Below are positions 3,895-53,946 of a DNA stretch of 64,000 bases, one piece after another. The first letter of the stretch is position 1, and each line of letters starts with the position of its first letter. A program made the translations under genes and the position numbers. Source of the stretch: a candidate division KSB1 bacterium (GTDB taxonomy: Bacteria; Zhuqueibacterota; Zhuqueibacteria; Residuimicrobiales; Krinioviventaceae); assembly GCA_034521575.1 (NCBI GenBank), contig JAXHMJ010000005.1:62001-126000 (forward strand), written 5' to 3'. Below the pieces are notes generated by a model. That model did not search any database. It saw only the letters and a program-made list of their open reading frames with translations, and had not been told where the DNA came from.

Positions 3895-5891
3895 TCACAT
3901 AAAGTAATCAAAATCCTGTTCGCGCCGCATTCTTTTGCGTATGCGCAGGATATGAGCGGGCACCAGTTTGGGATCGAGTTCGATAAAATTCCATTCACCC
4001 TGCCAGATGTATTTATCATGGCTGAGCAGCTCATCCGCCAGAAACGGACGATCATGCGCAATATCCAGATTATCGAGCGGCACATGCACAAACCCGGCCT
4101 GCGTGTGATAGGGATCCAGATTGACCACCGTGATAATAATATTTTCAAGATCATCGCTGGTCTTGCCGTAGGCCAGCAAATAATCATTGTCCGTTTCGTA
4201 AAACTCGATATTGTAAGTGTCCTGAAGCGCCGGATTATCGCGCCGCACCTGGTTGACCTTTGAAATAAAATCAGTGATATTTCCCGGCTGCTCCAGATTC
4301 CACTGTTTGATCTCGTATTTTTCAGAATCGAGATATTCTTCACGACCGGGTACAGCATCCGTCACACACAATTCATATGCCGGTCCATAGATGCCGTAAT
4401 TGGAAGACAGCGTGGCGGCCAGCACCAGACGCGCTATAAACACAGGACGTCCACCGAACTGTAAATGTTCGGGCAGGATATCCGGTGTATTGGGCCAAAA
4501 GTTCGGCGGCAGTATTCCCGGATTTCGCCACGCGTCAGTTCGGTCAGGTAATCCATAAACTGCTGTTTGGTATAACGCCAGGTGAAATAGGTATACGATT
4601 GGGAAAATCCCATTTTCGCCAGACCGTATTTAACCCGCGGGCGCGTAAACGCCTCGGCCAGAAAAACCGCTTCAGGCTCGACCTTTTTCACCTCTTCAAT
4701 TACCCATTCCCAGAACGGCAGCGGTTTGGTGTGCGGATTATCAACACGGAAAATCGTGACGCCTTTTTCAATCCAGAACAAAAACACCTCTTTTAATGCG
4801 TCCCATAGCTCCCGCCACTGTTCGGTTTCAAAATTCAACGGCAGCACATCCTCGTATTTTTTCGGCGGATTCTCGGCGTGCTGAACCGTACCATCCGGTC
4901 GCCAGTGAAACCACTCCGGGTGTTCGTTCACCCAGGGATGATCCGGCGAGCATTGAAAGGCCATATCCAGCGCCACTTTAATATGGCGCTGTTCAGCTGC
5001 CTGCACAAAATGCTCAAAGTCCTCAATGCTGCCCAGATCAGGATGAACGGATGTGTGCCCCCCTTCTCTGCAACCTATAGCCCAGGGACTTCCGGGCTCT
5101 CCCGGTTCGGAGGTCGGCGAATTGTTACGGCCTTTGCGGTTGGTTTCGCCGATCGGATGAATGGGGGGGAAATAAATCACATCAAATCCCATGTCGGCAA
5201 TGCGCGGGATCATACGTTCACAAGACCTGAACGTACCAGGCTCACCCGGATTTTCCCCGAAGGATCGCGGAAACAATTCATACCAGGCGCTGAACAGCGC
5301 GTGCCGGGGATCAACATCAACCCGCAGTTCACGTTCAAAGGTATACAACAGTTCGGGATCGGGATAGCGAAGCATCAATTCTTCCAGAGGCTCATCCAGC
5401 GCCATATTCGCTGCCGTATCCCGGTTTTGATCATGGAGCGCCCGTGCGTATTCTTTTAATTGTTGAGAATCCGCGTCCTGCGCACGCCCGGCGGCCTCCT
5501 CCGTGAGCCGGGCGGCGATCATCAATTCAACGGCAACATCCTGACCGACCTCGTATTTTTTCTCAAATCCGCGTTTCCAGGTGGCAAAATGATCAATCCA
5601 TCCCTGTATGGTATAATAATAGCGGCCAATTCTGTTCAGCGGGAAACTCGCGTGCCAGCGGTCATTGATTTCAGGCTGCATGAGAATTTTCTGCCACTCT
5701 TTTTCATCCTGAAATCGGAACAGGAGAGCGGCGCGCGCCACATCGTGCCCGTCCCCGAACACATCCGCCTGAACCGTTATTTCTTCACCGGCCACCCGTT
5801 TTGCCGGAAAACGACCGGCATTGATTTCCGGCCTCACATGTTCAATCACAATACGTTTTCTGCCCTTTAATGCCACAGGACCTCCAATCAT
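3895..5891 (-). CDS. glgE: GlgE, alpha-1,4-glucan:maltose-1-phosphate maltosyltransferase (one frameshift)
   Basis: GlgE extends alpha-1,4-glucan with maltosyl units from maltose 1-phosphate. An N-terminal beta-sandwich domain (from about residue 10, RIVIEHVRPEINAGRFPAK) precedes a GH13 barrel. Visible landmarks are AWYELFPRS, IYFPPIHPIGETNRKGRNN, the nucleophile region FRVDNPHTKP and the acid/base region FLAEAFTRP. The frame is lost near 4501-4512 after TRGEIREY; the next frame continues NFWPNTPDILPEHLQFGGRP and runs to the stop at 3895, giving a family-typical length near 665 residues. GTG at 5876, four bases after GGAGG, is an alternative start. It is first in the GlgE-TreS-Mak-GlgB operon. 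Confidence 0.93.
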
Positions 5892-7423: not shown

Positions 7424-8443
7424 ATGAAACCAACGATGAAGGACATTGCTGAATCGCTGGGCGTGTCGCGCACCACAGTGTCTCTGGTACTCAAGGGTGA
7501 TGGTGATAAATACAATATCAGCAAAAACACCCAAAAGATAATTATGCGCAAAGTAAAGGAACTGAATTATCGCCCCAATTATTTTGCAAGCGCTCTAAAT
7601 CTGAAACGATCCAATATCATTGGTGTGATCCTGCCGAATGTATTTGAAATCTATATGAATGAAATCATTCATGGTATAGAAGACATTTTGTATGAAAACA
7701 GTTACAATATGACCCTGTGCACAAGCCGGTTCAGCACTGGGCTTGAAAAGCGCAATATTGATCATTTGAAATCCTTTGTCGACGGTTTTCTCATCGCGTT
7801 CAATGCTCCTTTCAGCGATACCGAATATGACTATAGTCACCTGCATGAACTGGTAAAAGAGCAACACCCCGTTGTTTTTATTGACAGGTACCTGCCAGAA
7901 TTAAACAGTGCTTATGTGGTACAGGATGATTTTTACGGCGCTTATCAGGCAACGCAATGTCTGGTAGAAAAAGGATGCCGCAATATCGGCTATATCAGCT
8001 TTGATCTGGCCATTACATCAATTCAGGACAGGTATAGGGGGTATTGTGAGGCACTGAAAGATCAAAAGCTCTCCATCCATCAGGACCACATTATCCTGCT
8101 CAAGCAGCAGAATAATCAATCCAATGATCTCAGAGCTGCATTGAAAACATGTCTGGAACGACCGGATAAACCGGACGCATTTTTTGTCACCACAAACGGG
8201 ATCGCTTTGAAAGCATCCTTTATACTGAAACAACGGGGGCATTCTGTTCCTATGGCGCGCTTCGGCATGGATCCAAATTATTTCACATCAAAAATGATCC
8301 TTGTGGAACAGCCGCATATGACTATCGGTAAAAAGGCAGCACAGATGCTTCTCGATCAGATCAGCGGCCAGAGTGGTACAGCAGGAAAAGAAATGCAGCA
8401 GCGGATCAAACCCAGAATTATTGATAAAATCACCCATTCATAA
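7424..8443 (+). CDS. LacI-family transcriptional regulator
   Basis: A 339-residue repressor-type protein. The N-terminal helix-turn-helix reads MKDIAESLGVSRTTVSLVLK, followed by the hinge region (LNYRPNYFASAL) and a periplasmic-binding-protein-like effector domain (IIGVILPNVFEIYMNEII onward). A good ribosome site (GGGAGG) precedes ATG 7424. It sits between the sugar kinase and the isomerase, 31 and 13 bases apart, so it is co-transcribed and probably controls this locus. The ligand is unknown. A candidate operator lies at 6162-6175. Confidence 0.88.
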   Translation: MKPTMKDIAESLGVSRTTVSLVLKGDGDKYNISKNTQKIIMRKVKELNYRPNYFASALNLKRSNIIGVILPNVFEIYMNEIIHGIEDILYENSYNMTLCTSRFSTGLEKRNIDHLKSFVDGFLIAFNAPFSDTEYDYSHLHELVKEQHPVVFIDRYLPELNSAYVVQDDFYGAYQATQCLVEKGCRNIGYISFDLAITSIQDRYRGYCEALKDQKLSIHQDHIILLKQQNNQSNDLRAALKTCLERPDKPDAFFVTTNGIALKASFILKQRGHSVPMARFGMDPNYFTSKMILVEQPHMTIGKKAAQMLLDQISGQSGTAGKEMQQRIKPRIIDKITHS

Positions 8444-8456
8444 TTGGAGGCTCAGG

Positions 8457-9131
8457 ATGAGACGCAGCGAGATCAATCATATTATCAGTCAAGCCAAACT
8501 TTTTTTCAATTCAAGACAATTCCACCTCCCTCCCTGGGCGTTTTGGTCCCCTCAGGACTGGTATGGTAAAGGTGAGATATGCCGGGAGATCATTGATAAT
8601 ATGCTCGGTTGGGACATTACTGATTTCGGTAAAAATGATTACTATTCCTGTGGTTTGCTGCTCTTTACACTTCGCAATGGAAATTTGATCAGAGATAATA
8701 AAGTCTATGGGGAAAAAATCATGATTGCAGAGGAAGGGCAGATAACCCCTATGCATTTTCACTGGTCCAAACTGGAGGATATCATCAACCGCGGAGGAGG
8801 CAAACTTGTCATGAAACTGTATTCATCAACAAAGGATGAATCACTTTCTGAAAATCCGCTGCGCGCCAGAGTGGACGGCATTGAGCGGTCTTTTCAGCCG
8901 GGCGAAGAGCTTGTCCTGCAGCCCGGTGAAAGCGTTTGTCTGGAACCGGGACTGTATCATGAATTCTGGGCCCAGCCGGGCAGCGGTAAAGTCATGGTCG
9001 GTGAAGTCAGCGCTGTCAATGACGACAATACGGACAATCGATTTTATGAAAACGTCGGCCGTTTCCCGGAGATCCAGGAAGATGAACCGCCGCTGCATTT
9101 GCTGGTATCGGATTATTTAAACTATATTTAA
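8457..9131 (+). CDS. D-lyxose ketol-isomerase-like cupin
   Basis: A 224-residue protein resembling the D-lyxose isomerase (YdaE-type) cupin family, which interconverts D-lyxose and D-xylulose and in some members D-mannose and D-fructose. Metal-binding cupin residues are visible in EGQITPMHFHWSKLEDI (His-His-Glu) and later in LEPGLYHEFWAQ (His). Start ATG 8457 follows GGAGG; the longer open frame upstream overlaps the LacI gene and is not used. The gene is last in the kinase-regulator-isomerase operon and is convergent with the SSS transporter only six bases away. The substrate is not certain. Confidence 0.75.
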   Translation: MRRSEINHIISQAKLFFNSRQFHLPPWAFWSPQDWYGKGEICREIIDNMLGWDITDFGKNDYYSCGLLLFTLRNGNLIRDNKVYGEKIMIAEEGQITPMHFHWSKLEDIINRGGGKLVMKLYSSTKDESLSENPLRARVDGIERSFQPGEELVLQPGESVCLEPGLYHEFWAQPGSGKVMVGEVSAVNDDNTDNRFYENVGRFPEIQEDEPPLHLLVSDYLNYI

Positions 9132-9137
9132 AAATCT

Positions 9138-10540
9138 CTAGTTATTCGATAATCGACGTACAGCGCTGGACAGGAGTGTAGCAACCGTCAGATAGAGATA
9201 CAGTACTATTTCTATTCGTAACACACCCAGTTTAGACGGCACAATTCCCGCAATAGAACCTAAAAAAACAAAAAAACCGACGGCAGAAACAACAATGATC
9301 TCTCTGCCCGGCTTTTTCTGTGTCACCGCACACAATACGATCGGCGCCAACATCGACGTGCCTGTAAAACTTCACCCGCGCCAGGAGCGCCAGCTGATCA
9401 CCCATGATTGCAGAAAAGACCAGCACCAGCATGGCAAACACAAACAAGGCGAGTTTGGTTTGATGCATCACTCTTTTTTCACTTCCGGAAAGCAGAGACC
9501 GCAGCTCATTGCCAAGCGCAAATATCTGCGCATTGGTGGTTGACAGACAGGCGGCGAACAATCCCACCACTGCCAGACCGGCTACCGGAGCCAGCTGATC
9601 ATATAAAAGCGCATTCGCCCAAAATTTCTGAGCAGAGGCGCCTGGATATTGCACCGCACCGTAAAAACCGATGAACACCGTGGCCAGAATAATAACAACG
9701 GCGAATAAGCCGACGGCAACGGTCATGGTTTTAAGTGATTTCAGATTGCGCATCACCACAAGCCGGGTAGTCATATGCGGCTGACTGACCGGAATCATAA
9801 CCACGGCAATCATGCTGGCAATGAGAAACTGAGGTGTAAACAGACCATTGGGTCCCGGAATGGACAATAATTCCGGATTGATATCGCGAACCTGCTGCAT
9901 CATTTCTCCCAGTCCGCCGAGTTTTACAATACAGGTTACACTGATAAGCCAGAGCACAACCAACAGGATTGTGCCCTGAATTGCATCACTGTATACAATC
10001 GCTTTGAATCCGCCGATTTCCGAATAAAGAATCATCAAAATCACCAGAATCAAAGCCCAGCCCCAATAGGGAAGAAAATCAGGGAATGCAGCATCAAAAA
10101 ACACAGAAATGCCGCGGACTTGTATTGCGGCATAAGGAATCAAAAAGATAAAAGCGCTGGCAAACATAGCATAACCGGCCCACGGTGTGCCGTAAGAATT
10201 CGACGTTAATCCGGCAACACCTTTAAACCCGAGTTTTTTGGCTTTTTTGCGGATCATTAAACCAAACCACAGGATAAAAAACACCATCACCCCATCGGAA
10301 AACGCCAGAAAAATCCAGGCGCCGATACCATGTTGTCGGAAAAAATCAGGCATCCCCTGGAAGGTAAAGGCGCTGAACAATGCAGCCGAAAATGTCAGAA
10401 AGCCCAGAATAATTCCCAAATTTGATCCGGCAAGCATAAATTCCTGGGGATCACGTCCGCGTTTATAGGACTTTAAAGAGGCCAGAACCAGCAGTAGCCA
10501 TCTGGCGGCGCGAGGATAAAAGAATCACCCAAGCTATCAT
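9138..10540 (-). CDS. Sodium:solute symporter (SSS) family transporter (two frameshifts)
   Basis: Membrane transporter of about 465 residues with many hydrophobic helices, typical of sodium-coupled sugar or organic-acid symporters. Landmarks are FMLAGSNLGIILGFLTFSAA, GGFKAIVYSDAIQGTILL and VVGLFAACLSTTNAQIFALG. The start ATG 10540 overlaps the stop of the small upstream gene (TAATG) and follows AGGAGG. Near 10500 the frame shifts from MIAWVILLSS into WLLLVLASLKSYKRGRDP. Near 9366-9369 one extra A in a run of four moves the end into FTGTSMLAPIVLCAVTQKK and on to the stop at 9138. Both are one-base events. Neighbours suggest a carbohydrate or uronate substrate. Confidence 0.83.
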
Positions 10541-43562: not shown

Positions 43563-44321
43563 TTATGTATTCGACCGCATTCTCTGCCGCCTTGCTTCAA
43601 ACATGCAAAGTGCGGCAGCTACAGAAACATTTAACGAATTAATGTGACCATGCATGGAAATGGAAGCGATAAAATCACAGGAATCCCGGACCAGCCGGCG
43701 TATTCCCCGCCCCTCACTTCCCATTATCAGCGCGGACGGTCCGCACCAATCTATATATTCAAAGGTCTGCTCTGCATCCTGATCCAGACCGGTAATCCAG
43801 AGCCGGCGCTGCTTGAGCTCTTTGATCGTGCGCACAATATTAGTGACCTGCACAACCGGGCAGTAAGCCGCAGCGCCTGCGGACGCTTTTACAGCCGATG
43901 CCGTGAGACCTGCAGCCTTGTCTTTGGGAATAATGACACCGTGCACACCGGCGGCGTCTGCGGTTCTGAGAATCGCACCTAAATTATGGGGGTCCGTAAT
44001 GCCGTCCAGTATCACAATCAGCGGCGCCTCATCGCGCTTTTCCGCTTGCCTAAAAAGCTCATCCAGTTCAACATATCCGGGCAGCTCCACGCGGGCTGCC
44101 ACATTCTGATGTTTATGAGTACCGGTAATCCTGGAAATATCGTGCGGGGAAACGCGCTGTAGCGGCACAGATTTTTGATCACAATAGCGTAAAATATCGC
44201 GGACAGGTTTTTGTCCGGCATCGCGTGATATATAAACAACTTTGATCCCCAACCCGCTGTCAATCCATTCCAGTATCGGATTGCGTCCGTAAATGAGACC
44301 TGTGTGCTTTTCTTTTGTCAT
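43563..44321 (-). CDS. rlmB: 23S rRNA (guanosine-2'-O)-methyltransferase RlmB (SpoU family)
   Basis: 252 residues. N-terminal L30e-like substrate domain (GLIYGRNPILEWIDSG) and SPOUT knot methylase with the three motifs LDGITDPHNLGAILRTAD, IMGSEGRGIRRLV and SLNVSVAAALCMFEA. It methylates ribose of a guanosine in 23S rRNA; the RlmB target is expected but TrmH-type relatives look similar. Sits between ddl and the AEC carrier on the same strand. Confidence 0.9.
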   Translation of the reverse strand: MTKEKHTGLIYGRNPILEWIDSGLGIKVVYISRDAGQKPVRDILRYCDQKSVPLQRVSPHDISRITGTHKHQNVAARVELPGYVELDELFRQAEKRDEAPLIVILDGITDPHNLGAILRTADAAGVHGVIIPKDKAAGLTASAVKASAGAAAYCPVVQVTNIVRTIKELKQRRLWITGLDQDAEQTFEYIDWCGPSALIMGSEGRGIRRLVRDSCDFIASISMHGHINSLNVSVAAALCMFEARRQRMRSNT

Positions 44322-44325
44322 ATTA

Positions 44326-45486
44326 TTATTCTTTAAACCAATCTGTTTTCGGTGTATAATTTACCTGCAAGTCACGCCGGGTACGATGGCGTTCGACAGC
44401 AAGATCAATCAAATGATCCAGCAGTGTCTGATAAGGTATGCCCGAGGCATCCCACAGTTTGGCATACATGCTGATCTCGGTGAACCCCGGTATCGTGTTC
44501 AGTTCATTGAGATAATAAGCGCCGGTTTTCGCATTCAGCAGAAAATCCACCCGGGCCATCCCCCGGGTATCCGCAGCCAGAAAGCTTTTTACAGCGGTTT
44601 GCTGTATCTGTGTTTGCAGATTTTGATCAAGCGGCGCGGGGATATTCAGAACGGATGCATTATCCACGTATTTGGCATTATAGTCATAAAACTCATTGGA
44701 CGGCACCACTTCACCGGGCACACTGGCTCGGGGACGCAGATTGCCGAGCACGGCGACTTCAATTTCCCGGACATTGGGCACTGCCGCCTCGATGAGTATT
44801 TTTTCATCAAACCGGATGGCTGTATCCACAGCGGTGAGCAATGTATTCCGATCATGAGCCCTGGAAATGCCCACACTGGAGCCCAAACCCGCCGGTTTGA
44901 CAAAAACGGGATATCCCAGATGTTCTTCCACGGCGCGGCAATAGTCGGCATGCGACGGACAGACCACCTGGCCTTGAAGAAGCTGATCGCTGTTCGCAGA
45001 TTTCTCCTGCCAATCCTGTTTGTAAAACCAGAGATAATCCGGTACCGGCAAGCCGGATTGCCGGCAGATCTGTTTTTGCCAGATTTTATCCATGCACAAG
45101 GAAGATCCGAGTACTCCGGCCCCGACATAGGGCACATTCATGCATTCGAGCAATCCCTGCACGGTGCCGTCCTCACCGTACGTTCCGTGCAGCGCCGGAA
45201 ATACCACATCAATGGGTAGAGATACAGACTGATCGTCTGTAAAAATGCGCGGGTGCTCCGGATCAATCGCCGGATACACCTGGGCCGGCGGCTCGCCCTT
45301 GCCCGATTTCATGTACTCTATCACCCGGTCACCATAGAGCCATTGACCGGATTTTGAGATACCGACGGGAATCACATTATATTTCTCTTTATTCAATGCA
45401 GAGATCACAGACTGTCCCGAGACCAGCGACACCTGATGTTCAGTGGAACGCCCACCTACGAGCACGGCAATATTGAGTAAAGACAC
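44326..45486 (-). CDS. ddl: D-alanine--D-alanine ligase
   Basis: 386 residues, ATP-grasp ligase making D-Ala-D-Ala for peptidoglycan. Motifs are NIAVLVGGRSTEHQVSLVSG, FPALHGTYGEDGTVQGLLE, FVKPAGLGSSVGISRA and DFLLNAKTGAYYLNELNTIP with GFTEISMY. Tyr in the omega loop region (TEISMY followed by lysine-free text) fits the D-Ala rather than D-Lac specificity, though this was judged by eye. Upstream gene is the DoxX fusion, 66 bases away. Confidence 0.93.
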   Translation of the reverse strand: MSLLNIAVLVGGRSTEHQVSLVSGQSVISALNKEKYNVIPVGISKSGQWLYGDRVIEYMKSGKGEPPAQVYPAIDPEHPRIFTDDQSVSLPIDVVFPALHGTYGEDGTVQGLLECMNVPYVGAGVLGSSLCMDKIWQKQICRQSGLPVPDYLWFYKQDWQEKSANSDQLLQGQVVCPSHADYCRAVEEHLGYPVFVKPAGLGSSVGISRAHDRNTLLTAVDTAIRFDEKILIEAAVPNVREIEVAVLGNLRPRASVPGEVVPSNEFYDYNAKYVDNASVLNIPAPLDQNLQTQIQQTAVKSFLAADTRGMARVDFLLNAKTGAYYLNELNTIPGFTEISMYAKLWDASGIPYQTLLDHLIDLAVERHRTRRDLQVNYTPKTDWFKE

Positions 45487-45552: not shown

Positions 45553-46989
45553 TCAGGGTTTGAGGTTTGTGTATGCCTGCACATATTCGGGTATTTGAAC
45601 GTCAAAAGCAGACACGGCCATAGCTCCCGGATTGCCCCGACGGGCAAATTCAAATCCGCCCTGGATGGGCAATCGGCCCGCGGCAAGAACATGAGAAGCA
45701 ATCCAGGGTTGCTCCAGTGTCCGCATATAGCGCAGCGTCTCCTCGGGATCCGGACACCAGACCGGATTATCACGTGTAAGCTCGGCGTTGCCGGTATTGC
45801 AGGTTTTCAGCCAGAAATCGGGTTGAATACGATGATTCAGGCACCATTTGACCGCCTGTGTTGAATGGGCGGCGATCCCTGCCGGAACACCGTATTGTTT
45901 CACCTGATCGACAAAGGCACGAATCAATTGATAGCGTCCGTGCGCCAGCAGATAATCGGCCGGCATTACACAGGCCGCGGCGCCCTGTCCGATAAGCTGC
46001 TCGGCACGTGCCAGCGCCTCATCCCAGGGACAAAGCGCAATATACTGCAGTGTTCTGCCTTCAGTTCGCCGGAATTGCTGCAGCGGACCGAGTGTAGACG
46101 GGAAGCCGATGATCGTACGCATGCCGGTGAGTTGCGCCAGCTTTAGGGTGGCAAATATGCGATCCGAATCGTAGCTGCTCCTGATAAGCGGATTCAGGTG
46201 TTCTGTGGCACGATCATTTGCCTCGCCGAGGAACAAATCTGTTAACAAACAGAGAGAACTGATTTTTAAAGAACCAAGGGATGCCGGTTGTATCTTTTTT
46301 TGCAGATATGCTGCGGTGACAATCAGTGAACCCGGTTCGTTTTTTTTCTGTTTTTCCGGGAAAAGATTCAAGCGGCTGAGCAAAAATCCGCCAATTCCCC
46401 AGAACGGAATAATCATAGCATGTTTCAGGATCTGACGTCTTGTCGCTTTGTCTTCGGCAGTTGGACGGCTGCTGCGTTTCTTGCCGGTTTTGCGGGCACC
46501 GGAACGCTGCAACGCGTCGAGAAGCGCATCCACGCCCCAGTACGCTCCAGTGGGAAACAGAATTATGGTGAACAAAAAGAGCAACTGTAACAAATCAATG
46601 CTGAACAACTGTATTGCATACTCTGGGGACAGCAATGAAAAATACGGGTTTTCCAATAAATAAAACAGCAGAGAAAACAAAAGAGCTGTTAATGCCGCAA
46701 TTCGAGAGAACAGTCCCAGCATCAGCAGCAGTCCGGCAAATAAAAAGCCCCAACTGAAAAACACAGTTAGCAAGGCGCACAACCACGGCCAGGCGGCAGC
46801 CGTCCGCAGGAACGACATTATTTCCATATCCAGCAGCATGGCCTGAATATCCTGACCGCCGCCGGTTAAATGACTCAATCCGAGCAGGAACAGCCAGAGC
46901 CCGATCGTCATACGAATCAGAGTTAATCCGATTTTATGAACCCGGGTCAGGCTCTCACCAGATAGAGTTGTCTTTTTCTTTCTATGCAT
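45553..46989 (-). CDS. DoxX-like membrane domain fused to an aldo/keto-like TIM-barrel domain
   Basis: 478 residues from ATG 46989. Residues about 15-155 contain four hydrophobic helices of DoxX/terminal quinol oxidase-like type (LTLIRMTIGLWLFLLGLSHL; GFLFAGLLLMLGLFSRIAAL; ending LFPTGAYWGVDALL). A basic linker then leads to RRQILKHAMIIPFWGIGGFL, resembling a twin-arginine signal without full consensus. The last 260 residues form an alpha/beta domain (LAQLTGMRTIIGFP, IALCPWDEALARAEQLIG, ACVMPADYLLAHGRY, IAAHSTQAVKWCLNH) like the TIM barrels of uncharacterised aldo/keto-reductase-like proteins. The fusion suggests a membrane-tethered redox or sensor protein, with the barrel possibly outside. 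Function unknown. Confidence 0.6.
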   Translation of the reverse strand: MHRKKKTTLSGESLTRVHKIGLTLIRMTIGLWLFLLGLSHLTGGGQDIQAMLLDMEIMSFLRTAAAWPWLCALLTVFFSWGFLFAGLLLMLGLFSRIAALTALLFSLLFYLLENPYFSLLSPEYAIQLFSIDLLQLLFLFTIILFPTGAYWGVDALLDALQRSGARKTGKKRSSRPTAEDKATRRQILKHAMIIPFWGIGGFLLSRLNLFPEKQKKNEPGSLIVTAAYLQKKIQPASLGSLKISSLCLLTDLFLGEANDRATEHLNPLIRSSYDSDRIFATLKLAQLTGMRTIIGFPSTLGPLQQFRRTEGRTLQYIALCPWDEALARAEQLIGQGAAACVMPADYLLAHGRYQLIRAFVDQVKQYGVPAGIAAHSTQAVKWCLNHRIQPDFWLKTCNTGNAELTRDNPVWCPDPEETLRYMRTLEQPWIASHVLAAGRLPIQGGFEFARRGNPGAMAVSAFDVQIPEYVQAYTNLKP

Positions 46990-47056: not shown

Positions 47057-47705
47057 TTAGAATGACATACCAAACCACACATCAAAGGATTCGTTTTGTA
47101 CAGAATATTGTAAAAGGTTAATACCAGAATCTGTAAAATCCTGGTTGTACCTGAATTCTATGCTTATCTTTTTACGTTGAGAAAAAGGAAACTGGATCCC
47201 GGCGGCGACACTTCCGCCCCAGGTCGTCGATTTCAAATGTTCAGCAAATTGATCCGTTACCAGTTACAGAAGAAAACAGCCATTTCCCTCTTCTGTATTC
47301 TGTCAAATAATCAATACGCGGCCCGGCCTGAATGAAAGGTGTGATGGATTTAGCAGGTACTTTTAGTTGCAGAAAGACAGGCAGTGATACATAATCCAGT
47401 CGGGTGTTTGCCCGAACTGTATTGATTCTTTTTCCGGTTTCACTGGTTTCAACTTGATCGTGAATAAACCCTCTTTGAGCGTATTCCAACTGTAAAGCGA
47501 GTGAGATATGATCAAAAATTTCTTTTTCCGCATACACGGCAACATTTAATCCGGAACGCCAATCTCTGGAATCAAAAAATCCGTCAATATCAAGCCTGGA
47601 ACGAGTAAACGCCATCTTTGCACCATAATCAAATCCGGTTTTCGCCTGTATAACGACAGGAAAGGCGCAAGCTATAACAAAAATGGCAATTATTTTTAGT
47701 CTCAT
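47057..47705 (-). CDS. Outer-membrane beta-barrel protein (PorT/OMP_b-brl_2-like), one frameshift
   Basis: About 215 residues. Signal peptide MRLKIIAIFVIACAFPVVIQA, then strands of an eight-stranded barrel: FDYGAKMAFTRSRLDIDGFF, ISLALQLEYAQRGFIHDQ and PVFLQLKVPAKSITPFIQAG. The frame breaks at about 47255-47268; the correct continuation is DQFAEHLKSTTWGGSVAAGI and onward to a final aromatic strand FDVWFGMSF with stop at 47057, ending in Phe as outer-membrane barrels do. Members of this group are common in the FCB phyla. Last gene after porin and FMN-binding protein. Confidence 0.72.
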
Positions 47706-47798
47706 AACTCGTCTCCTATAACATAAAAATGCAAAAGATTCATTTTATACCCTGGAAGAATGCAGGTTTAAATTAAATGAATTAATCTATAAATGCAA

Positions 47799-48350
47799 TC
47801 AAAATTGAGATGAATCAAGCAGGGTTTCCTGATTTTTATAGAGCTCATCCACAAAAATCAACCAGCGTCTCACACCCCGACTCACGGCATTTGAAGAACT
47901 CGTTGCTCCGGAGATTGCGTCAATCTTCCGGTCCAGAGATTGCTCCGAATCTATGGATACCCCGTAAAATTGCTCAAACCAGCGGCGGTCTATTATTTGC
48001 CTGCCGTAATGACCATGATAGTTCAATATGTCCATATACACCACAGTGCAGCTTGAATCGATAACAATCAGAGTCGAAATCAAGGCGGATCGTGCGCGAA
48101 CGGCATCTGCTATGGCAAATGCAGAAAACCCTTGTTTTTCCAACGTCCAGAGATAGACAAAATCTTGTAAAAATTTCTGACTACTTTTTTTCTCAATATC
48201 AGATTCAAGTGCTTGCGGCAGAGTGTATCTTTTAAATAAAACGTCAAGATCCGAGTCCCAAGTCATGAGTTTTTGTTCTGCTTTTTCTTGCAAACCGGCA
48301 AAAACAGAATGAGTTATCAGTAAGAACACAAAAACAAGTATCGCTTTCAT
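47799..48350 (-). CDS. Exported FMN-binding domain protein (putative covalent flavin carrier)
   Basis: 183 residues with signal peptide (MKAILVFVFLLITHSVFA). The C-terminal FMN-binding domain contains YHGHYGRQIIDRRWFEQF and KIDAISGATSSSNAVSRGVR. The SGAT motif preceded by Asp matches the site where ApbE attaches FMN to threonine in NqrC/RnfG-type domains. No heme-binding motif is present. It lies between a porin-like gene upstream and a beta-barrel gene downstream, so it would act in the periplasm or at the outer membrane, probably in electron transfer. No apbE gene is in the window. Confidence 0.75.
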   Translation of the reverse strand: MKAILVFVFLLITHSVFAGLQEKAEQKLMTWDSDLDVLFKRYTLPQALESDIEKKSSQKFLQDFVYLWTLEKQGFSAFAIADAVRARSALISTLIVIDSSCTVVYMDILNYHGHYGRQIIDRRWFEQFYGVSIDSEQSLDRKIDAISGATSSSNAVSRGVRRWLIFVDELYKNQETLLDSSQF

Positions 48351-48401
48351 GATTGATCTCCAAAATCAGGGGATGGCTCCGGCGGAACCATCCCCTTTGA
48401 A

Positions 48402-49469
48402 CTAAAACATGTATCCAACGCCCAAATTCAGCAGTTTCGTATCTGTTTCCTCCAGTTGATCGGTTTTGACAGCAAAATCCAATTTGAATACAACCGAGTC
48501 AATGGGTTTCACAGAAATGCCCATGAGCCATTTTTGATAGTGATATTGGCTTTCAAGTTCAGTAGGGTTTAGAGCTGAATGAACTGTATTATAATCCGTC
48601 CATCGAACCCAGGGTATAATTTCAGTATTCAAATTCCAAAACCGGCCAATATTATAACCAAGATCGATATAATAACCGACTGATGATTCGATTTCGGCTT
48701 CTGGTAAAGTATATTGATCGTAAAGAATGGTTCCATACTCTGCGGTCGCATAAATTCCATGGCGCTGATAGCGTCCGTGAAGTTCATACAACTGAAAGCC
48801 TACAGGATCTGCATCATTACGATAGGCATCATTGATCGACCAGGAAAATCCCACCCGGGCTCCGGCGATACCAGTATAATCCAGCCTGATGCTTTTCAGG
48901 AGATCATCGGCGTTGGCCTTGTACCCCTTTTGTCGGCCGCCTCTCAGCCCCGATTCAGGAGAAAATCCATCTGCATCGAGTCCTTCCATCAATGTCATAT
49001 TGTATTCCAGGTCCCGAAACACTCCGTAAAAAGACATACCATTTCCAAACCAGGTTGTAGGGATGATTACTTTGGCGTAATCAGGCCGTTCCACACTTAA
49101 AAAAGTGGGGGGCTCATGTACCAGATTGAATATTCCGACAGGAGCTAAAACCACTCCCGCCCGAAATCCAAAACGCGGATCCGGATGAAAATCAACATAG
49201 GCCTGTTCAAGCTCAAGTTCTCCCTGTCCGCTTTTCACTAAATTGTGTTCAAGTTCCACCTCGGAATTGAAAGACCAAATGGGTGTCCATTCATGCCGGT
49301 AAAAAAGAATAAACCTGTGAAAGTCCAAAGTCCGGGTTTCCTGTGTGCGGTCCATATTATAATGCAACTCACCATATCCTCCAATGGAGGAAGTGGGTGA
49401 AAAAAATTCGTTTTGCCCCCGTACAACAACGGAGAGCAAAAGTATGACCAAAACAGTAAAAAACTTCAT
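48402..49469 (-). CDS. Porin-like outer-membrane protein
   Basis: 355 residues. Signal peptide MKFFTVLVILLLSVVVRG, then alternating beta strands rich in aromatic residues (IGGYGELHYNM, FHRFILFYRHEWTPIWSFNS and EVELEHNLVKSGQGELELEQ, AYVDFHPDPRFGFRAGVVL) and a final strand LLNLGVGYMF ending in Phe. The EQAYVDF and RAG segments resemble phosphate-selective (OprP-like) porins and related barrels. First gene of a three-gene outer-membrane operon with its own promoter at 49587-49615; leader about 110 bases with AGGAG before ATG. Solute not known. Confidence 0.75.
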   Translation of the reverse strand: MKFFTVLVILLLSVVVRGQNEFFSPTSSIGGYGELHYNMDRTQETRTLDFHRFILFYRHEWTPIWSFNSEVELEHNLVKSGQGELELEQAYVDFHPDPRFGFRAGVVLAPVGIFNLVHEPPTFLSVERPDYAKVIIPTTWFGNGMSFYGVFRDLEYNMTLMEGLDADGFSPESGLRGGRQKGYKANADDLLKSIRLDYTGIAGARVGFSWSINDAYRNDADPVGFQLYELHGRYQRHGIYATAEYGTILYDQYTLPEAEIESSVGYYIDLGYNIGRFWNLNTEIIPWVRWTDYNTVHSALNPTELESQYHYQKWLMGISVKPIDSVVFKLDFAVKTDQLEETDTKLLNLGVGYMF

Positions 49470-49676: not shown

Positions 49677-50264
49677 TTATTGAACATCAAGATAATCATC
49701 AACATCAATAATATTGTTAATCACTTCCATAATAGCCAGACCGGCAATGGATTTGATGCCCAATTTTGCGGAAATATTCTTTCGGTGGGATACAACGGTG
49801 TGAACGCTAATGTGAAGCGCTGCGGCAATTTGTTTGTTGGGATACCCTTTAACCAATAGTTTCAGCACATCCAGTTCGCGATTGGACAAGGATTCATTTC
49901 GATTTGCTGTTTCCGAGTATGTAAATTTGCTTTTTACAATCTTTTCAATAAGCGCACTGCTATCCGACAAATAAATCAAATCATCAAAAATATTTTCCTG
50001 CTCACGGTTGAAAAAATGAGTTATCAAACCAACCTTTTTTACAGACGTCTGGTTTTTAAAAACATTAAGAAATCCTTGTTTTAGCAATTCGGTATTTACA
50101 ATGATCAATTTGGGCATACCAGTTGCAATACGAGATTCAAATTCCTTAAATGAAGCAAGACAAACAATCTGGAATTCAGGCAGGGCCCGTCTCACTATTC
50201 GGATCAATCCCTCCTGAATAATTTCCGAGGATTCGATGATAACAATTTCAGATTCGGCATTCAT
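49677..50264 (-). CDS. LuxR/NarL-type regulator with an atypical receiver domain
   Basis: 195 residues. Residues 1-115 fold like a response-regulator receiver (EIVIIESSEIIQEGLIRIVR), but at the phosphoacceptor position the strand reads KLIIVNTELL, with Asn where Asp is expected; the conserved lysine is not obvious either. Residues 130-190 are a clear LuxR helix-turn-helix (LSNRELDVLKLLVKGYPNKQ, then VHTVVSHRKNISAKLGI). It is therefore probably controlled by something other than aspartyl phosphorylation. The start directly follows the stop of the RIC-like gene, so the two are co-expressed. Confidence 0.8.
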   Translation of the reverse strand: MNAESEIVIIESSEIIQEGLIRIVRRALPEFQIVCLASFKEFESRIATGMPKLIIVNTELLKQGFLNVFKNQTSVKKVGLITHFFNREQENIFDDLIYLSDSSALIEKIVKSKFTYSETANRNESLSNRELDVLKLLVKGYPNKQIAAALHISVHTVVSHRKNISAKLGIKSIAGLAIMEVINNIIDVDDYLDVQ

Positions 50265-51284: not shown

Positions 51285-51696
51285 AGTCTGTTCCTGCCAT
51301 TTTAAAGAGACCCCATTCGAGGATCGTAACTCGCTTTGCCATATTTCATTCCCTTGTCAACAGCTATGTAACTTTGACCGACGAGTTTATTGGTTGATCC
51401 AGTGCATACCGTTTCCAAAATTCAGAGATTATTTCATTCACAGATTTATACATAACAACCGTCCCCCTTTTTTCGTTCATATTTGCTTTTACACACTCAA
51501 TAATTAAAGATTTTTTGCTGCAAATCCAAGAGAAAAAGAGACAATGAGGCTTGTTGAATAGCGTTTTTTTAATAAAAACAAAATCAGACCGGTTTCCACT
51601 TTTATTTTTCACGAAAAACCTTATATTTTAAAGAACACATTTAAATGGATGTGCATTTTACTAAAACACAAAAAGTACAAAATCAAGGAGATCCCT
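51285..51696. other. Non-coding or unassigned stretch before the GH3 gene
   Basis: A minus-strand reading frame (51364-51453, starting MYKSVNEIISEFWKRYALDQ) is preceded by GGGGG and could be the start of a broken small gene, but it ends at 29 codons and nothing recognisable follows. The part near 51640 is an AT-rich upstream region of the GH3 gene. No clear promoter was fixed. Confidence 0.3.
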
Positions 51697-53946
51697 ATGT
51701 CCAGATTTAGCACTTTCCTGTTCATCTACATATTAATCAGTGTGTTAACGGCACAATCTTCAGAGTATCCATTTCAAAACCCTGAACTCCCGACAGCTGA
51801 TCGCATTGATGATCTGGTTTCGCGTCTGACCCTGGAGGAAAAAGTCAATCAGCTGCTTTACAATGCGCCTGCCATACCGCATCTGGACATTCCCGCTTAT
51901 AACTGGTGGAGCGAATGCCTGCACGGTGTGGCGCGTAACGGCCGCGCCACGGTTTTTCCCCAGGCTATTGGTCTGGCGGCAACGTTCGATACGGACCTGA
52001 TGTACCGTATCGGAGCTGTGATCGCCACGGAAGGGCGGGCCAAGTACAACGCCTGTTCGGCGCAGGGATACCGCGGTCAGTATCAGGGGCTGACCTTCTG
52101 GTCGCCGAATGTGAATATTTTCCGCGATCCGCGCTGGGGCCGCGGCCAGGAAACCTATGGAGAAGACCCATATCTGAGCAGCCGAATCGGTGTAGCGTTT
52201 GTAAGGGGATTGCAGGGCGATCACCCGAAATACATCAAAGCCGCGGGCTGCGCCAAGCATTATGTGGTGCACAGCGGTCCGGAGGGATTGCGGCACGAAT
52301 TTGACGCCAAAGTATCCCGGAAGGACCTGTGGGAAACCTATATGCCGGCATTTGAAGCTCTGGTCACCGAAGCCAAAGTGGAAGGTGTGATGGGCGCCTA
52401 CAACCGCACCAACGGAGAGCCCTGCTGCGCGCATCCGTATTTAATGCAGGACGTTCTGCGCGGTCAGTGGAATTTTGACGGTTATTTTACCTCGGATTGT
52501 TGGGCCATACATGATTTTTATGAAGGACATAATGTGGTGGAAACGCCGGCTCAGGCCGCCGCTCTCGCACTCAACACCGGCTGCAATTTAAACTGCGGAA
52601 ATACCTATCCGGAAATACTCAATGCCGTTGATCAGGGTCTGGTCACAGAAAAAACAGTGGATCGGAATCTCAAGGAACTGCTGGGAACCCGGTTCCGCCT
52701 TGGTTTATTCGATCCGCCGGGCACCGTACCGTTTGACTCGATTTCCACTGACGTCATCAACTGCCCTGAACATCAGGCATTGGCCCTGGAAGCTGCGCAA
52801 AAATCCATTGTACTGCTCAAAAACAGCGACAACCTGCTGCCGCTGGACAAGAATTTGCGCAAAGTCTACATCACCGGGCCGCTGGCAACGGATTTGCAGT
52901 GTCTGCTGGGCAATTATTACGGACTCTCGGACAATATGATCACCATGATGGAAGGGATTACGCACTCTTTATCGGATCATACTGCGATTCAGTATCGCCA
53001 GGGCGCTTTGTTGAACCGCCCGAATGCCAATCCCATCGACTGGTTCAGCGGCGTGGCTGCAGCATCGAATGTAACCATCGCCTGCGTGGGAATCAACGGA
53101 CTGCTGGAAGGTGAAGAGGGAGAATCCATTGCCTCGCCGAGCAAGGGAGACCGGTTTGATATTTCCCTGCCCCGGAGTCAGATGAACCTGCTGCAAAGCC
53201 TTCGCCAAAGCACGGATTCGCTGGTGGTCGTGCTGACCGGCGGCAGCCCATTCACCTGTTCCGAGGTGTATGAACTGGCGGATGCTTTGGTCTTTCACTG
53301 GTATTCGGGTGAACGCGGCGGACAAGCGGTGGCCGACATTCTGTTCGGGGATGCCGTACCCTCCGGACGCCTGCCGATCACGTTTCCGAAATCCCTGGAC
53401 GATCTTCCGCCTTATGATGATTACAGTATGCCGGGACGCACTTATCGATACATGGAAAAAGACGCGTTGTTTCCGTTCGGATTCGGATTGAGCTATACGA
53501 CGTTTGAATATCAAAATATAACCACCGCACAAGCAGCCATTCAGCCGGGAGAATCCACAACGGTTAGCGTGATGGTGACCAATACCGGGAGCATTGCAGC
53601 GGACGAGGTGGTGCAATTGTATATCCGGGATGACAAGGCATCTGTGCGCGTGCCGTACATTTCACTCAAAGACATGAAGCGAATTACTCTGAATCCCGGC
53701 GAACAGCGTAGCGTCTCCTTTGCCATTACCCCGGACCTGCTCAAGCTGGTTAACGAAACGGGCGAACGGGTACTGGAATCCGGCGACTTTACGCTTTTTA
53801 TCGGCGGCGCCCCTCCCCTTTCCCGCAGTCTGGAGCCTGGGAGCAGCGCAATGGCAGGAAACTCTAATAACGGTTCAATAAAAAATATTCTTATACAAAA
53901 CCGAAAACTCTGCTTGGAACGGCGCCCGATTGTCTACGGCTTTTGA
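51697..53946 (+). CDS. GH3 family beta-glycosidase (beta-xylosidase/beta-glucosidase type), exported
   Basis: About 750 residues. ATG 51697 follows AAGGAGA; signal peptide MSRFSTFLFIYILISVLTA. N-terminal GH3 barrel with NWWSECLHGVARNGRATVFP and QAIGLAATFD, SPNVNIFRDPRWGRGQETYG, GCAKHYVVHSGPEGLRHEFD and nucleophile Asp in FDGYFTSDCWAIHDFYEG. Then come the C-terminal sandwich (QKSIVLLKNSDNLLPLDKN; SGRLPITFPKSL) and a fibronectin-like domain (TNTGSIAADEVVQLYIRDD). It resembles the plant/bacterial beta-xylosidase branch. Near 53838 a one-base shift would give GAAQWQETLITVQ and a stop at 53881, a more normal end, before the hairpin at 53923. It probably releases sugars from oligosaccharides in the periplasm. 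Confidence 0.88.
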   Translation: MSRFSTFLFIYILISVLTAQSSEYPFQNPELPTADRIDDLVSRLTLEEKVNQLLYNAPAIPHLDIPAYNWWSECLHGVARNGRATVFPQAIGLAATFDTDLMYRIGAVIATEGRAKYNACSAQGYRGQYQGLTFWSPNVNIFRDPRWGRGQETYGEDPYLSSRIGVAFVRGLQGDHPKYIKAAGCAKHYVVHSGPEGLRHEFDAKVSRKDLWETYMPAFEALVTEAKVEGVMGAYNRTNGEPCCAHPYLMQDVLRGQWNFDGYFTSDCWAIHDFYEGHNVVETPAQAAALALNTGCNLNCGNTYPEILNAVDQGLVTEKTVDRNLKELLGTRFRLGLFDPPGTVPFDSISTDVINCPEHQALALEAAQKSIVLLKNSDNLLPLDKNLRKVYITGPLATDLQCLLGNYYGLSDNMITMMEGITHSLSDHTAIQYRQGALLNRPNANPIDWFSGVAAASNVTIACVGINGLLEGEEGESIASPSKGDRFDISLPRSQMNLLQSLRQSTDSLVVVLTGGSPFTCSEVYELADALVFHWYSGERGGQAVADILFGDAVPSGRLPITFPKSLDDLPPYDDYSMPGRTYRYMEKDALFPFGFGLSYTTFEYQNITTAQAAIQPGESTTVSVMVTNTGSIAADEVVQLYIRDDKASVRVPYISLKDMKRITLNPGEQRSVSFAITPDLLKLVNETGERVLESGDFTLFIGGAPPLSRSLEPGSSAMAGNSNNGSIKNILIQNRKLCLERRPIVYGF

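Follow-up and report, generated by a model that had tools for sequence, protein, structure and literature searches.

The locus

The window, a stretch of 64,000 nucleotides from a candidate division KSB1 bacterium, carries on its minus strand a single unbroken reading frame of 478 aa at 45553-46989, with its ATG at 46989. Codon usage in this frame is coding-like and resembles that of the neighbouring genes (0.077, against -0.14 and -0.08 for the other frames). An earlier note on this DNA read the gene as a DoxX membrane module joined through a twin-arginine-like segment to an aldo/keto-like barrel. This architecture is borne out by a Pfam match, an invariant arginine pair, a structural model and a fold match.

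The N-terminal part (residues ~16-167; 46489-46944, minus strand) holds four membrane helices. It matches Pfam DoxX (PF07681) with 19.5 bits and E 0.0016, which is under the gathering score of 23.6. Because the DoxX profile matches 61 of the 64 family members at E <= 0.01, the domain is, judged by its relatives, DoxX-like by descent despite the low score. In an AlphaFold2 model built from a 64-row alignment the helices lie at residues 16-42, 68-91, 95-113, 131-144 and 178-206. The fifth, together with R184-R185, forms an internal Tat-like segment (46372-46440, minus strand). The arginine pair is invariant across the 64-row alignment and stands straight before the last helix, with the other four helices ahead of it in the model.

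After a linker comes a (beta/alpha)8 barrel (residues 231-478; 45556-46299, minus strand); the C-terminal 250 residues are modelled with pLDDT mostly 88-98. The closest structure is a putative aldo-keto reductase (AKR), 4exb_F, with Z 20.1 and 2.8 A over 220 residues, and the barrel of a canonical relative (L041) scores Z 20.8 against aldo/keto reductases. At the sequence level, no convincing match between the family and any solved structure was found. The window barrel has no match to Pfam Aldo_ket_red (PF00248) at E <= 1, and that family is absent from those matched by the 64 members at E <= 0.01. The model confirmed the fold, but judged by strand position no D-Y-K-H tetrad is seen at the ends of strands 2, 3 and 4 in the window protein or its family. 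Since the tetrad was not seen and there is no Pfam match, the label AKR refers here to the fold only, and the barrel is not filed as an AKR enzyme.

A widespread fusion with modular parts

One scan of genome contigs gave at least 522 confirmed loci for the fusion of DoxX and barrel, spread over many phyla: KSB1/Calditrichota, Bacteroidota, Acidobacteriota, Planctomycetota, Verrucomicrobiota, Hydrogenedentota and others. The best 80 of these were kept for study. An architecture that recurs in hundreds of genomes is far from a chance event, and the suspicion that the two parts might be separate genes in all relatives, or the second half no barrel, has fallen away. The combination had also been called little described. 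No paper describing the fusion was found, but the fusion itself is not rare.

The genome that contains the window also holds an intact fusion (L002), two fusions split by frameshifts (L003/L006 and L004/L005) and a stand-alone DoxX. The frameshifts in these paralogues lie at L127 ~5119-5144 and L128 ~5210-5252, and one ApbE gene of the same genome (G000:C5:1410096-1410813) is also split; all three may be either assembly errors or real damage.

Each part of the fusion can be found independently. Barrels without DoxX exist, and their N-terminus is often of Tat type (L021, L033, L035, L161-L163). DoxX also stands alone, adjoining a Gfo/Idh/MocA protein with a Tat anchor; the N-terminus of this protein, RRDFLQGLAGVPVLGAF, looks like the RR-helix of the fusions. 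Thus the set is modular: DoxX, a tether formed by the RR-helix and an outer domain with an oxidoreductase fold, encoded in one gene or in two.

No conserved gene neighbourhood of the fusion emerged: no cluster occurred in more than 9 of the 80 loci, and the Pfam content was diffuse.

A flavinylation-like motif in the tether

Ordinary members of the family carry the motif D-A-x-[TS]-[SG]-A-[TS]-x-K between helix 5 and the barrel. This is the new observation here. Two surveys of flavinylation (PMC8238504, PMC11334425) do not mention DoxX in their main text, nor does a study of dual Sec/Tat proteins (PMC5449189) mention DoxX fusions in its own. The openly licensed literature yielded nothing relevant linking DoxX to flavinylation or ApbE, to aldo-keto reductase or to MocA/Tat, although an earlier description is possible.

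Of 79 fusions, 55 have the form D..[ST][GS]A[ST], as a rule 31-33 residues ahead of the barrel GGN, and 22 have the strict form Dxx[ST]GA[ST]. Among 510 neighbouring proteins, the G/S form matched twice and the strict form once, a background of ~0.005 per 520 aa. All 63 aligned relatives have Thr or Ser at the acceptor position, and in 51 of them the motif starts with D. The corresponding residues of the three paralogues in the window's genome are DAMTSAS, DARTGAT and NAISGAT.

The motif recognised by ApbE is D-x-x-[S/T]-G-A-[S/T], and its seven residues are sufficient; changing G to A still leaves ~50% flavinylation (PMC12052999). Two features count against equating the family's motif with it. 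Position 5 is S, not G, in 40 of 63 copies, and some Acidobacteriota members read VASAT.

Independent support comes from an unrelated fold with DoxX as its partner. In 10 of 11 parsed homologues of a Tat-type Gfo/Idh/MocA protein, DA[VI]TSA[TS] occurs near the C-terminal end, and several of the motif-bearing proteins directly adjoin a stand-alone DoxX. Because of this C-terminal position, a signal-peptidase site was rejected as the meaning of the motif. All eight barrels found without DoxX lack it (L160, with a truncated frame, was left out of this count).

Association with ApbE

In three loci, from at least two phyla, the fusion has ApbE as its immediate neighbour. At L091 it is 8 nt downstream on the same strand and is the sole ApbE of that genome; at L057 it is next to the fusion, again on the same strand; and at L110 it is convergent to the fusion, inside a 678-aa frame. 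Assuming ~2 ApbE genes per genome and ~144 adjacent slots, ~0.07 such adjacencies would be estimated by chance. Mere presence of ApbE in a genome says nothing, since it occurs in 62 of 63 genomes of the class, and this test was set aside as uninformative. The L110 frame (7555-9591, minus strand) ends with the ApbE domain, and its first 370 residues have no Pfam match.

In five genomes of the class (G000, G010, G014, G018, G021), no more than 4 kb separates a stand-alone DoxX from ApbE. A conserved cluster (L126 at G000:C5:1404000-1416000, and L130-L133) combines ApbE and the stand-alone DoxX with a Tat-type Gfo/Idh/MocA protein, a galactose-binding-type protein and a PMT_2-like membrane protein; the copy in the window's own genome adds a protein that looks by eye like DUF1080. 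No protein of the cluster has a flavin motif. Its absence from the Gfo/Idh/MocA proteins counts against a flavin explanation, as does the fact that many fusions have no conserved neighbours.

Divergence of the window copy

The window gene is an outlier within this family. Where a position is conserved to 90% or more in the family, the window protein agrees in 42% of cases, whereas each of the 63 other members agrees in 91% or more. The tree nests it among the fusions, with a terminal branch 9.14 changes per column long against a median of 0.25; with a branch of such length its exact place is unsure. The 63 genomes of the class hold no close orthologue (best score 180 bits, against 1086 for self).

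At the aligned position of the motif (residues 222-228; 46306-46326, minus strand) the window protein reads LIVTAAY, so that the flavin motif is missing. Also lost are W-H-x-x-Y-E-G...K of DoxX helix 1 and most of the barrel pocket motifs GGN, AHxRD, KTLHHxxYWSA, AFK and GMYDFQ. RR, R260, C320, D345, H375, K395, D463 and Q465 are retained, and in the model the topology of helices, RR and barrel is kept. From the alignment, the window copy is probably a re-purposed paralogue outside the family's flavin-linked reaction, with a shifted function or a binding role as a pseudoenzyme. It could instead still catalyse a reaction of the family's kind on a new substrate, a free or docked cofactor taking over from the tethered FMN. 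The seven residues kept besides RR, the barrel fold and a frame that has stayed open despite extreme divergence speak for such an enzyme, but the joint loss of GGN, AHxRD, KTLHHxxYWS, the flavin motif and the WHxxYEG of DoxX makes it rather unlikely.

Proposed mechanism

Four known systems resemble parts of the fusion. Dual Sec/Tat polytopic proteins, among them the Rieske, MoCo and polyferredoxin families of actinobacteria (PMC5449189), have the same order of parts: helices in even number, RR, one more helix, positive charges after it and an outer redox domain. By this likeness, the four helices, invariant RR, fifth helix and positive charges of the family suggest that the barrel lies outside the cytoplasm and that its export is Tat-dependent. 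Carriers flavinylated by ApbE (NqrC/RnfG, FMN_bind, DUF2271 and DUF3570; PMC8238504, PMC11334425) likewise have an extracytoplasmic Dxx[ST]GA[ST]-like motif and a membrane partner, with apbE adjoining in some loci. Unlike them, the fusions have no FMN_bind, DUF2271 or DUF3570 domain, and the window copy lacks the motif as well.

Thiosulfate:quinone oxidoreductase DoxDA (DoxD/DoxX plus DoxA) also combines a four-helix membrane part of DoxX/DoxD type with an extracytoplasmic domain, and quinone binding by DoxX may be expected by analogy. Unlike DoxDA, the fusion has no DoxA-like domain, its outer domain being an AKR-fold barrel on a Tat-type helix. DoxD and TQO profiles match the window protein weakly; NCBIfam TQO_large_DoxD gives 18.1 bits against a cut-off of 300. 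With the aldo/keto reductase superfamily (4exb, YghZ, Kv-beta) the barrel shares its fold, at Z ~20 over 220 residues. It differs in having no Pfam Aldo_ket_red match and no tetrad seen at the matching strand ends, and in being predicted to be extracytoplasmic and tethered to the membrane.

Taken together, we consider it on balance probable that the family consists of flavinylated membrane oxidoreductases, of which the window gene is a strongly diverged paralogue with a shifted or binding function. In ordinary members, Sec would insert the four DoxX helices, and Tat would export the AKR-like barrel, already folded, by means of the RR-preceded fifth helix. ApbE would then attach FMN to the Thr or Ser of D-A-x-[TS]-[SG]-A-[TS] in the tether. 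The tethered flavin could shuttle electrons between the periplasmic barrel and quinone at DoxX, while a substrate, perhaps a sugar or polyol, would be oxidised or reduced in the barrel. The linker is modelled poorly (pLDDT ~39), which makes any placing of the flavin tentative. A broader form of this mechanism is plausible but somewhat more doubtful: DoxX would be the membrane partner of widespread periplasmic oxidoreductases, of AKR or Gfo/Idh/MocA fold, that are flavinylated by ApbE at a DAxTSAT-type motif and pass electrons to quinone, with the window copy freed from the cofactor.

AKR and Gfo/Idh/MocA folds are classically NAD(P) binders, and periplasmic glucose-fructose oxidoreductase holds its NAD(P) tightly bound. 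DoxX might therefore be a mere anchor or assembly partner for a Tat-exported barrel with tightly bound NAD(P), and the DAxTSAT loop might be structural. The type B Gfo proteins adjacent to DoxX and the stand-alone Tat barrels, all without the motif, fit such a role, as does the frequent S at motif position 5. An anchor of this kind seems distinctly unlikely because it leaves unaccounted for a seven-residue motif that two unrelated folds share, each at a position of its own and each with DoxX as partner, and the ApbE genes that adjoin the fusion in three loci.

The earlier note had suggested that the fusion could link redox chemistry at the membrane with an active site in a soluble domain. For the family, the flavinylated mechanism retains this idea, as an ApbE-type motif lies between the two halves. 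Such coupling is least likely in the window copy itself, where the motif, the polar residues of DoxX helix 1 and most pocket residues are gone. Decay to a pseudogene, which the very long branch, the lost motifs and the two frameshift-split paralogues might suggest, is very unlikely, since 478 codons are open where stops would normally be expected after decay to ~28% identity, codon usage is coding-like, and RR and the fold are kept.

DoxX proteins are abundant and poorly understood. If the broader form of the mechanism is true, the oxidoreductases partnered with DoxX would be a new class of ApbE substrate and DoxX would gain a role. The recurring pairing with Tat-anchored, apparently flavinylated oxidoreductase domains makes this role concrete and testable. 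It also offers a possible route by which many uncultured phyla re-oxidise exported oxidoreductases of sugar type. As the window gene illustrates, a cofactor site can be lost while fold and topology persist.

Neighbouring genes

Upstream of the fusion, at 47241-49469 on the same strand, lies a trio of genes for a porin O/P-like outer membrane protein (48402-49469), an FMN_bind protein with the strict motif DAISGAT (47799-48350; Pfam FMN_bind E 2.6e-7) and an OMP_b-brl protein. The trio is possibly a flavin-linked envelope module that happens to lie near the fusion. A conserved operon of the fusion with the FMN_bind and porin genes was rejected, because FMN_bind relatives occur in only four other genomes of the class, all without a DoxX-barrel fusion.

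Downstream on the same strand (43566-45486), a gene for D-alanine--D-alanine ligase (44326-45486) begins 66 bases past the fusion stop and is followed by rlmB; the three genes possibly share one transcript. Also near the locus are a LuxR-type regulator (49677-50264, minus strand) and a glycoside hydrolase family 3 protein (51649-53946, plus strand).
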